Shown one piece after another: positions 16,803-18,789 of a stretch of DNA of 64,000 bases. Every line of letters begins with the position of its first letter. Positions within the stretch are counted from its first letter, which is position 1. Under the pieces are notes generated by a model, which was not told the origin of the DNA, searched no databases, and was given only the letters and a program-made list of their open reading frames with translations. The stretch lies in contig JADCER010000003.1 of assembly GCA_020249925.1 (NCBI GenBank), positions 372,001-436,000 of the forward strand, written 5' to 3'. Origin of the DNA: Roseomonas sp. (GTDB taxonomy: Bacteria; Pseudomonadota; Alphaproteobacteria; Acetobacterales; Acetobacteraceae). The translations under genes were made by a program, and so were the position numbers.

Positions 16803-16887
16803 GCGGGCGTGGTGGAATTGGTAGACACGCCGGATTTAGGTTCCGGTGGCGCAAGCCTTGGGGGTTCGAGTCCCTTCGCCCGCACCA
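16803..16887 (+). tRNA. tRNA-Leu (UAG anticodon)
   Basis: The 85-base sequence folds as a class II tRNA. The acceptor stem is GCGGGCG (16803-16809) with CGCCCGC (16877-16883), followed by discriminator A and an encoded CCA at 16885-16887. The anticodon arm is CCGGA-TTTAGGT-TCCGG (16830-16846), giving anticodon TAG at 16837-16839 and hence Leu for CUN codons. A variable arm and the GGTTCGAGTCCC T-arm are present. It lies 84 bases after the thiamine diphosphate enzyme gene and 51 bases before the trigger factor gene. Confidence 0.97.
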
Positions 16888-16938
16888 AAGCGCCGCCAGT
16901 GCCTTTTGTTTCTCTAACTTGGGATGGACGATCCTCCG

Positions 16939-18789
16939 ATGCAGGTTAATGAGCTCGCGCATGAAGGTTTGAAGCGCGCCTATTCCGTGACGCTTCCGGC
17001 CGGCGATATCGCCTCCAGCCGTGAAAAGCGCCTTGCCGAAATCGCCAAGACGGTTTCGCTGCCTGGCTTCCGCCCGGGCAAGGTGCCGCTTTCCATTGTG
17101 CGGCAGCGCTATGGCACCGCCGTGATGGGTGAGGTGCTGGAAGAATCCGTGGGTGATGCCTCGCGCAAGGTCGTGAGCGATCGCGGCCTGAAGCCGGCGC
17201 TGCAACCCAAGATCGAAGTGACGAATTTTGCCGAAGGCGCCGATCTTGAATTCCGCATGGAATTGGAAGTGCTGCCGGATGTGCCGATGCCGGAATTTTC
17301 CGGCATTGAACTCGAACGCCTGCGCGCCGAGCCTTCCGATGAGGAAGTGCAGAAAATCCTGGAAACACTGGCGACCCGCAATGGCGAATTGACGGATGTG
17401 ACCGAAGCCCGCCCCGCCACCAAGGGTGAGGTGATGGTGTGCGATTTCGCCGGTTCCGTGGTGCCTGACCTGCTGACCAATGGCCCGGCCCTTGGTGCCG
17501 TGCCCGGCATTCCGGGCCAGGCGCCGCGCGGGTGGGAAATTGGCCTCTCGGGCGGGCTCAAGTCCGAAATTGCGGCCATCGGCACGGATGAAGCGCTGCC
17601 CTATTTCGATTTGCGCGTGAGCGGCACGACGAGTGAGGCCGGCTGGGTCCAGGTATTCCTGGAAGGACCGAAGGGCATCGCCGCGGCGCCGGGTGCCACG
17701 CAAAGCCTGATGGTCAGCACCAAACTGGCTGGCGGCAGCCTGCCGGAAGGCACCCAGGGCAAGCTTGGCTTCAATTTCTACAGCCCGCGCGCTGATGGCG
17801 TTGATTTCCTGGATATGCAGCGCGACGCCTTTGAGGTGACGGCCGGGCGCAGCACGCTGGCCTTCACCTTCCCCAATCAGGCGGAAATCGGCGCCTGCCG
17901 TCCCTTCATCTATCTGCACGGCATGCCGGCGGGTGCTGCGGTGGAATTCACGCTGCGCATCGGGCCTGCGCGGCTGATCGCGGGCACGGAAGAACCGGCA
18001 CTCGCGCCCTTCGCGGGTGGTTCGGCCACCGATATGCCCATCGAAGTGGGTGGCCCTGGCTTCATCCCGGGCTTCACCGAACAGATGGAAGGGCTTTCCG
18101 TTGGCGATAGCCGCGATATCCAGGTGGTCTTCCCGCTGGAGTATGGTTCGGCCGAATTGGCGGGCAAGCGCGCGGTCTTCTCCATCACGGCGAAGAAGCT
18201 GCAGCAGCGCGTGCCGCGCGCCATTGATGATGAATTGGCAAAAACCGTGGGCCAGGCGGACCTTGCCGCCCTACAGGCACAGGTGAAGGAAGGCCTGCAG
18301 CGCGAATATGACGCCATGGCGCGCATGCGCCTGAAGCGCGCCCTTTTGGACAAGCTGGCCGATCAGGCGAGCTTCCCGGTGCCGGAAGGCATGGTGGAAG
18401 GTGAATTCAGCCAGATCTGGCAGCGCGTGGAAGCGGATTTGAAGGCTGGTCGGCTCGATTCCGATGATGCCGGCAAGGATGAAGCGACGCTGCGCGACGA
18501 ATATCGCGGCATCGCCCAGCGCCGCATCCGGCTTGGCCTGCTGCTTTCTGAAATCGGCCGCAGCAACAATATCCAGGTGACGCCGGATGAATTGAGCCGT
18601 GCGCTCCGCCAGGAAGCCGCGCGCTACCGTGGGCAGGAACAGCAGGTGATCGAGTTCTTCCGCAAGAATCCGGATGCGATGGAAAACCTCCGCGCCCCGA
18701 TCTTTGAGGAAAAGGTGGTGGACTTCATCCTGGAGCTGGCCAAGGTGGCCGAGCGTCAGGTGAAGCCCGAGGAATTGACGGAAGCCTGA
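16939..18789 (+). CDS. tig: Trigger factor with a ~180-residue insertion in its PPIase domain
   Basis: This ribosome-associated folding chaperone is 616 residues, against about 430-450 normally. The N-terminal ribosome-binding domain is intact, with GFRPGKVP at residues 43-50. The FKBP-like isomerase domain begins near residue 158 (KGEVMVCDFAGSV), is interrupted at residue 175, and resumes near residue 358 with FAGGSATDMPIEVGGPGFIP. The C-terminal substrate-cradling domain runs from about residue 424 to the end. The inserted block (17461-18009) contains segments such as PRGWEIGLSGGLKSEI, GTDEALPYFDLRVSG and AAVEFTLRIGPARLI, which I recall from jelly-roll carbohydrate-binding-like modules of phage tail proteins. 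The ATG at 16939 is chosen because family members begin MQV. Removing the block gives a normal-length protein. Confidence 0.9.
   Translation: MQVNELAHEGLKRAYSVTLPAGDIASSREKRLAEIAKTVSLPGFRPGKVPLSIVRQRYGTAVMGEVLEESVGDASRKVVSDRGLKPALQPKIEVTNFAEGADLEFRMELEVLPDVPMPEFSGIELERLRAEPSDEEVQKILETLATRNGELTDVTEARPATKGEVMVCDFAGSVVPDLLTNGPALGAVPGIPGQAPRGWEIGLSGGLKSEIAAIGTDEALPYFDLRVSGTTSEAGWVQVFLEGPKGIAAAPGATQSLMVSTKLAGGSLPEGTQGKLGFNFYSPRADGVDFLDMQRDAFEVTAGRSTLAFTFPNQAEIGACRPFIYLHGMPAGAAVEFTLRIGPARLIAGTEEPALAPFAGGSATDMPIEVGGPGFIPGFTEQMEGLSVGDSRDIQVVFPLEYGSAELAGKRAVFSITAKKLQQRVPRAIDDELAKTVGQADLAALQAQVKEGLQREYDAMARMRLKRALLDKLADQASFPVPEGMVEGEFSQIWQRVEADLKAGRLDSDDAGKDEATLRDEYRGIAQRRIRLGLLLSEIGRSNNIQVTPDELSRALRQEAARYRGQEQQVIEFFRKNPDAMENLRAPIFEEKVVDFILELAKVAERQVKPEELTEA
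17461..18009 (+). other. Inserted jelly-roll-like module within the trigger factor reading frame
   Basis: This in-frame segment encodes roughly residues 175-357 of the trigger factor. Ordinary trigger factors have only a short turn here (pattern DFxGxxDGxxFxGG), so the block replaces a surface loop of the FKBP fold. Its own pattern is a Gly-Trp near the start, alternating beta strands, a TFPNQAEIGACRPFIYL strand and a final VEFTLRIGPARL strand. This resembles phage tail fibre and prophage modules that usually begin with an LLTN or NLL segment and end with LRIGxPQLE. No direct repeats or transposon ends are seen at its borders. The resemblance is from memory and needs a profile search. Confidence 0.65.

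Follow-up and report, generated by a model that had tools for sequence, protein, structure and literature searches.

The trigger factor gene (tig) of Roseomonas sp. GCA_020249925.1, located on the window (the whole analysed stretch of 64,000 nucleotides from contig JADCER010000003.1), was found to carry an additional domain of 183 residues in a surface loop of its prolyl-isomerase (PPIase) domain. Profile comparison identified this insert as a homologue of a tail-protein module found in phages and prophages. The reading that we favour, at a probability of roughly 45%, is that a phage-tail module was captured, probably once, spread between tig genes, and would now give the PPIase head an additional surface for binding, in analogy to other FKBP folds with inserted domains.

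The tig reading frame (16924..18789, plus strand, 621 aa) was identified by profile search and contained the only Trigger_N match of the whole window genome. It scored 375 bits with the trigger factor model TIGR00115 (cut-off 180). Translation probably starts at MQVNEL at position 16939, as in the relatives, giving a protein of 616 aa. All features are on the plus strand, and residues are numbered on the 621-aa frame. Pfam matches were obtained for the ribosome-binding N-domain Trigger_N (16939..17370, from the start common to the relatives; residues 6–149), the FKBP-type PPIase domain resuming after the insert (FKBP_C; 18010..18189, residues 363–422), and the C-terminal chaperone domain Trigger_C (18262..18735, residues 447–604), in this order. 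The N-domain includes PGFRPGKVP, which agrees with GFRxGxxP, the ribosome-binding signature of trigger factor. The inserted beta-sandwich module, delimited by alignment, profile and predicted fold, occupies 17458..18006 (residues 179–361), at most 3 bases from the 17461..18009 of the original prediction, which had also called the protein about 180 residues longer than usual; in ordinary relatives, 4 residues are found in place of the 183. Intact FKBP flanks on both sides of the loop had been proposed as well, and were borne out by alignment with E. coli trigger factor (1w26), which ends at DFTGSV172 and restarts at F177EGG with the insert in between. Since the alignment breaks there, the insert replaces the turn between FKBP strands 2 and 3. 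Downstream of it, the FIPGF site is intact and a flap-like stretch, EYGSAELAGKRAVF, is present near residue 407; because the flap thus lies further downstream, the loop concerned differs from the flap loop of SlyD. A model of the full-length protein reached pLDDT 85 and pTM 0.52, too low to orient the insert relative to the rest.

A tRNA-Leu gene (16803..16887, plus strand) lies upstream of tig, separated from the MQVNEL start by 51 bases. Its position had been described correctly, and its suggested role as an integration site was rejected, as it was likewise found upstream of tig in 10/11 insertless main tig loci, compared with 10/10 insert-bearing ones; upstream of six tig paralog loci it was absent (0/6). 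An ABC-transporter ATPase-like frame follows tig in the window, and the best clpP match of the genome (G000:C1:281127-281666) is on a different contig.

For the origin of the insert, sequence, profile and structure searches were combined. Used alone, the window insert gave no Pfam, NCBIfam or PHROG match even at E 10, and no match in a PDB sequence search at E 10; a PDB search with the profile A4 returned six weak matches, the best at E 0.07; a 'Minor structural protein 5' and the 'Head spike fiber Rcc01080' were two of the six. Using tblastn, gp49 of Azospirillum phage Cd, annotated as tail protein in one of two records, was matched with 31% identity over 90% (E 0.01), and four Azospirillum plasmids with the same 31% identity (E 0.05). 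Alignment of a profile of 14 window-genus inserts with one of 12 tail modules (hhalign) gave a probability of 99.7 over 165 columns, with an E of 9.7e-26 that is valid for a single comparison. Inserts of other genera aligned to tail modules with probabilities of 98.3 and 99.0, and the inserts of the two sister genera g4 and g17 to those of the window's genus with 98.7. When 10 of 16 same-family proteins bearing the module were scanned, nine matched a tail PHROG and the tenth (L111) was a trigger factor paralog. Among these tail proteins were L105 (Mu GP46 and phrog_180, baseplate wedge), L106 and L115 (Mu Gp48 and phrog_203, baseplate wedge), L113 (distal tail protein, phrog_1302) and phrog_5939 tail proteins; 39 of the 82 members of A4 matched phrog_5939, and the window row no PHROG family. 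On viral contigs, 264 of 273 pattern matches were confirmed with the tail-module profile, and none of 105 with the trigger factor insert profile.

Several structural proteins harbour the module as an insertion. It splits the Gp48 protein in L106 (genome G230) and L115 (G220), both from genomes of the window's genus. Mu-like prophage Gp48 baseplate proteins with the module in mid-protein were located at L106:5565-6875 (minus strand), L115:5548-6912 (plus) and L121:4734-6035 (plus); Pfam and PHROG matched the first two in two separate stretches, and L121 appeared alike by eye.

The original prediction, which had described the block as a phage-tail-like jelly-roll module and proposed structure prediction and Foldseek for it, was thus supported by profiles and by the identity of the other bearers, and the predicted fold agreed: AlphaFold2, run with the insert and 81 relatives, returned ten strands at pLDDT 94.9 and pTM 0.90, and the model corresponds with high confidence to a jelly-roll beta-sandwich like that of the carbohydrate-binding modules (CBM) 4, 16 and 22. 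With Foldseek, the best PDB match was CBM16 (E 5.7e-7), followed by CBM4 and CBM22, and the best viral matches were phage tail proteins (E from 2.7e-8). TM-scores were moderate (0.33–0.54 on the query among the PDB matches listed, 0.37–0.70 among the viral ones), which argues for a common fold and not for a close structural relative. The Pfam family CBM_4_9 was matched weakly by 2 of the 82 A4 members (best E 0.013), and the window insert matched none. Many structural glycines and prolines, one Trp, one Asp and one Arg of the module are kept in the window-genus inserts. The Q and E of the tail motif PQLE were present in 0/22 trigger factor rows, all from the window's genus, versus 100% and 98% of 60 tail rows; therefore, the ligand or contact of the tail itself was probably lost, and the present ligand in the window's genus would probably be another.

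The distribution of the insert was determined from loop lengths and from a census of trigger factors. Among 104 trigger factor frames, the PPIase loop measured 4 aa in 38, 6–17 aa in 20 and 153–188 aa in 46, counts that are not frequencies, as 32 of the frames (L035–L063, L104, L109, L110) had been picked by similarity to the insert. In all 28 aligned trigger factors from other families of the class the loop had 4 residues, which rules out an FKBP extension common to the order. For loops and trees, 57 of these frames were combined with 57 new ones to a set of 114, of which 19 were dropped for the tree of the trigger factor core; 10 near-identical or partial loci were left out of one set and 13 rows of another. 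A trigger factor was matched in 387 of 394 same-family genomes, and in at least 36 of the 387 a single match spanned the insert, leaving 351 without such a single match; the count is a lower bound, since a strongly diverged insert would split the match and go uncounted. By genus, spanning matches were obtained in 22/22 genomes of the window's genus (g1), 3/3 of g29, 3/3 of g64, 1/1 of g6, 4/15 of g4 and 3/16 of g17. In a sample of the class, no insert-spanning match was detected in 38 genomes besides that of the window (37 outside the family; one with an N-terminal match only). A search with the insert alone located it in 33 of 35 g1 genomes. Its fixation in the tig genes of relatives, which the original prediction had left to be checked, is therefore complete or almost complete in this genus.

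Within g1, nearly all genomes have the insert, which is passed on with the gene and subject to purifying selection. Across 66 close g1 pairs, the insert had a median dN/dS of 0.082 and the remaining parts of the gene had medians of 0.118, 0.042 and 0.053, with insert values of 0.08–0.15 in close pairs; at longer distances within the genus, the median of the insert was 0.56 versus 0.17–0.28 elsewhere in the gene. At four-fold degenerate third positions of conserved codons, insert and core were equally similar in 5/5 g1 pairs (for example, 74/103 and 163/220 identical sites, respectively; p 0.69).

A different pattern of presence, absence and divergence was observed in the sister genera g4 and g17. 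The cores of L256, which bears the insert, and L262, which lacks it, are 98.8% identical; the junction is clean, with the DNA of the right flank identical over the stretch printed and one difference on the left, and where L256 has the insert, L262 has 15 bases of a short loop. For L013 and L267, with cores 96% identical, the inserts share only 37% of their residues, and their DNA identity of 0.55 compares with a codon-shuffled baseline of 0.45–0.52. Four-fold sites were identical at 195/232 positions in the core and 25/45 in the insert for L013–L267 (p 6.8e-5), and at 174/226 and 16/42 for L012–L257 (p 1.4e-6). Among the pairs within g4 or g17, p was below 0.05 in 6/7, the seventh being L013–L268 (p 0.083); excess divergence of the insert was also noted in g64 pairs (p 0.0027 and 0.012) and not in g29 (p 0.41; 15 tests in total, p values uncorrected). 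In the genomes of L013 and L267, dS was 0.13–0.41 for neighbouring frames (pairs with dN below 0.8 dS, opposite-strand frames included), 0.20 for the trigger factor core and 0.64 for the insert, and the dN/dS of the insert was 0.72–0.99 in four pairs of the two sister genera. Because its synonymous divergence exceeds that of core and neighbours, the insert has an older history than the surrounding gene in these pairs, a sign of allelic exchange at tig; following its capture, homologous recombination would have carried it from one tig gene to another. Exchange that is purely random is counted against by L012–L255 and L013–L267, each of which is a pair of mutually nearest inserts. Repeated simple deletion was considered as the cause of the absences in g4 and found unlikely, as 7/10 insertless rows share a 13-residue loop and are interleaved with bearers. 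The insertless loops of the subclade (L064–L066, L258–L266, L269–L278) have 6–17 residues and not the usual 4, and their ends resemble the linkers of the bearers; they may be scars or pre-adapted landing loops.

A second, diverged trigger factor with the insert was encountered in G104, G160, G212, G218 and G229 of the window's genus and in L104, L109, L110 and L111 of other genera, the latter at L104:5212-7311 (minus strand), L109:412-2337 (plus), L110:5377-7344 (plus) and L111:5368-8670 (minus). Several of these paralogs were found through similarity to the insert and are not evidence that paralogs always bear it. At a threshold of 0.01, FKBP_C was matched in none of the four tested (L104, L110, L109, L032); the ribosome signature was absent at the aligned place in L104, L109 and L110, and wholly or mostly kept in L032 and L033. 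The frame of L033:350-2920 (minus strand), a paralog from genome G160, extends about 200 residues past the usual end of trigger factor.

In the favoured reading, the insert would hold clients, nascent or only partly folded, or else a ligand beside the prolyl-isomerase site, a mode of action likened to that of the insert-in-flap (IF) domain of SlyD. An auxiliary site of this kind is preferred because inserted domains of FKBP folds serve to bind clients and raise folding activity: according to an excerpt of PMC11013033, a chaperone domain inserted into FKBP12 yielded a better folding catalyst, and according to one of PMC5034536, the inserted domain raises the activity of SlyD on partly folded substrates by up to 100–200 fold. 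Sister species with a short loop, and the 351/387 genomes without a single insert-spanning match, count against it, as do the higher dN/dS of the insert at longer distances within g1 and its negative Pfam, NCBIfam and PHROG searches. A new client or ligand range, raised in the original prediction, is a hypothesis that these data do not support.

It is somewhat unlikely that the domain is a tolerated passenger, accepted by the loop as a folded unit without function and kept merely to fold and not aggregate. According to an excerpt of PMC9287376, trigger factor can do without its PPIase domain in chaperone activity, which explains why an insert is tolerated and speaks for such a passenger, as do the many same-family genomes without a spanning match and the high dN/dS of the insert in the four sister-genera pairs. 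Against it stand the low dN/dS among close g1 pairs and the retention of the insert in 33 of the 35 g1 genomes. Moreover, in several sister-genera pairs the conserved codons of the insert show excess divergence at their synonymous sites as well, a pattern not produced by drift in place, and the insert is retained in three paralogs without the ribosome signature, although these were found by similarity to it.

We regard it as unlikely that the insert is a module of phage conflict, with trigger factor needed by phages and a tail domain placed on it blocking, mimicking or poisoning the folding or assembly of tail proteins; that its presence, absence and exchange reflect an arms race appears equally doubtful. 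The homology with tail modules would fit, as would presence and absence or divergent variants of the insert between near-identical trigger factors, and g1 genomes themselves contain prophage-type tail genes with the module (L106, L115, L121). For phage Chi on Salmonella, plating was reduced by more than 95% without trigger factor, and the authors guess that it folds phage proteins (excerpt of PMC10399903). In the window's genus, by contrast, the insert is near-universal, conserved and inherited with the gene, which is atypical for an arms race. A broader proposal, in which trigger factor would be a platform for an exchangeable phage-tail cassette, acquired from phages and then gained, lost or swapped among the tig alleles of sister species, that confers variable chaperone specificity, perhaps in a host–phage conflict where phages need trigger factor for tail folding, seems to us improbable as well.

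Returning to the favoured reading and its first step, a carbohydrate-binding-like beta-sandwich module would have been captured from a tailed phage or prophage, probably once, in one subclade of the Acetobacteraceae and would have landed in the loop between strands 2 and 3 of the PPIase domain. In an unrooted tree of 40 tail modules, for which 24 of 60 viral rows were drawn at random, together with 25 trigger factor inserts, one branch parted both kinds with a support of 100/98, and the same split was obtained from a smaller tree of 50 rows (98/96), for which the bootstrap had not settled. The two groups fit one capture, with the caveat that donors may be unsampled and that long branches could draw the trigger factor inserts together. 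A direction from phage to host is suggested since tail-type modules are common across viral contigs and the trigger factor type was found in one family only. A very improbable alternative, in which tail modules entered this loop more than once and independently, would account for the changes of insert label that the starred branches of the rooted core tree force, 7 at minimum and 9 by parsimony, and for the single 13-residue loop type in most insertless g4 rows, which are thus not separate deletion scars; opposed to this are the placement of all trigger factor inserts on one side of the branch from the 40 tail modules and the two pairs of mutually nearest inserts. That the insert is an assembly or sequencing artefact has a negligible probability: the window genome is a draft of 28 contigs, but many genomes share the insert in one open frame, including isolates of Neoroseomonas soli, marina and oryzicola, so that an artefact of metagenome-assembled genomes (MAGs) does not apply. 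The 33 insert-bearing loci of named relatives belong to isolates of Roseomonas and of Neoroseomonas, a genus of the Acetobacteraceae, and to MAGs; most close MAG relatives are labelled Roseomonas sp. and some otherwise, e.g. Asaia bogorensis. Assembly error and an order-wide FKBP extension, which the original prediction had listed among its possible refutations, were therefore both ruled out, by the isolates and by the 4-residue loops.

Trigger factor meets most new bacterial proteins and is regarded as a uniform three-domain chaperone. The architecture described here appears to be new, both of its parts being of known kinds, and no description of a trigger factor insert of this kind was found among the open-licence PMC papers searched. 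It is a clear example of a host housekeeping gene that contains a structural domain of phages. Natural pairs of nearly identical trigger factors, with and without the insert or with differing versions of it, are ready-made for testing, and bear on the role of the PPIase head and on the part of chaperones in phage conflicts.

Compared with known systems, the window protein is an ordinary trigger factor in its three domains, its match to TIGR00115, its GFRxGxxP signature, its FIPGF site and its standing as sole trigger factor of the genome, and differs from others in the beta-sandwich at the strand 2/3 loop. With the tail module (phrog_5939; Azospirillum phage Cd gp49) the insert shares homology over most of the module and the motif NP/NG..GA..G.PG..P..W...GT...PY.D...GT...TLR.G, whereas tail proteins have a leader ending in LLxExxRTN before the module, which trigger factor lacks, and the Q and E of PQLE that are missing from the window-genus rows. 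The predicted fold is that of CBM4, CBM16 and CBM22; unlike these, the window insert has no Pfam match and sits in a cytosolic chaperone. The IF domain of SlyD, SlpA and Thermococcus FKBP18 is likewise a whole domain within a loop of an FKBP fold, and its mode of action may well be similar, but the SlyD-type insertion replaces the flap loop, after an A-Y-G stretch and before L-x-F (excerpt of PMC11013033). No such flap replacement was found in the window protein, whose insert lies in the strand 2/3 loop, comprises about 180 instead of about 65 residues and is a domain of another kind, related to phage tails. The promiscuous Ig-like domains are beta-sandwich modules inserted in many phage structural proteins; the module described here is a promiscuous beta-sandwich as well, in this case residing in a cellular housekeeping gene.
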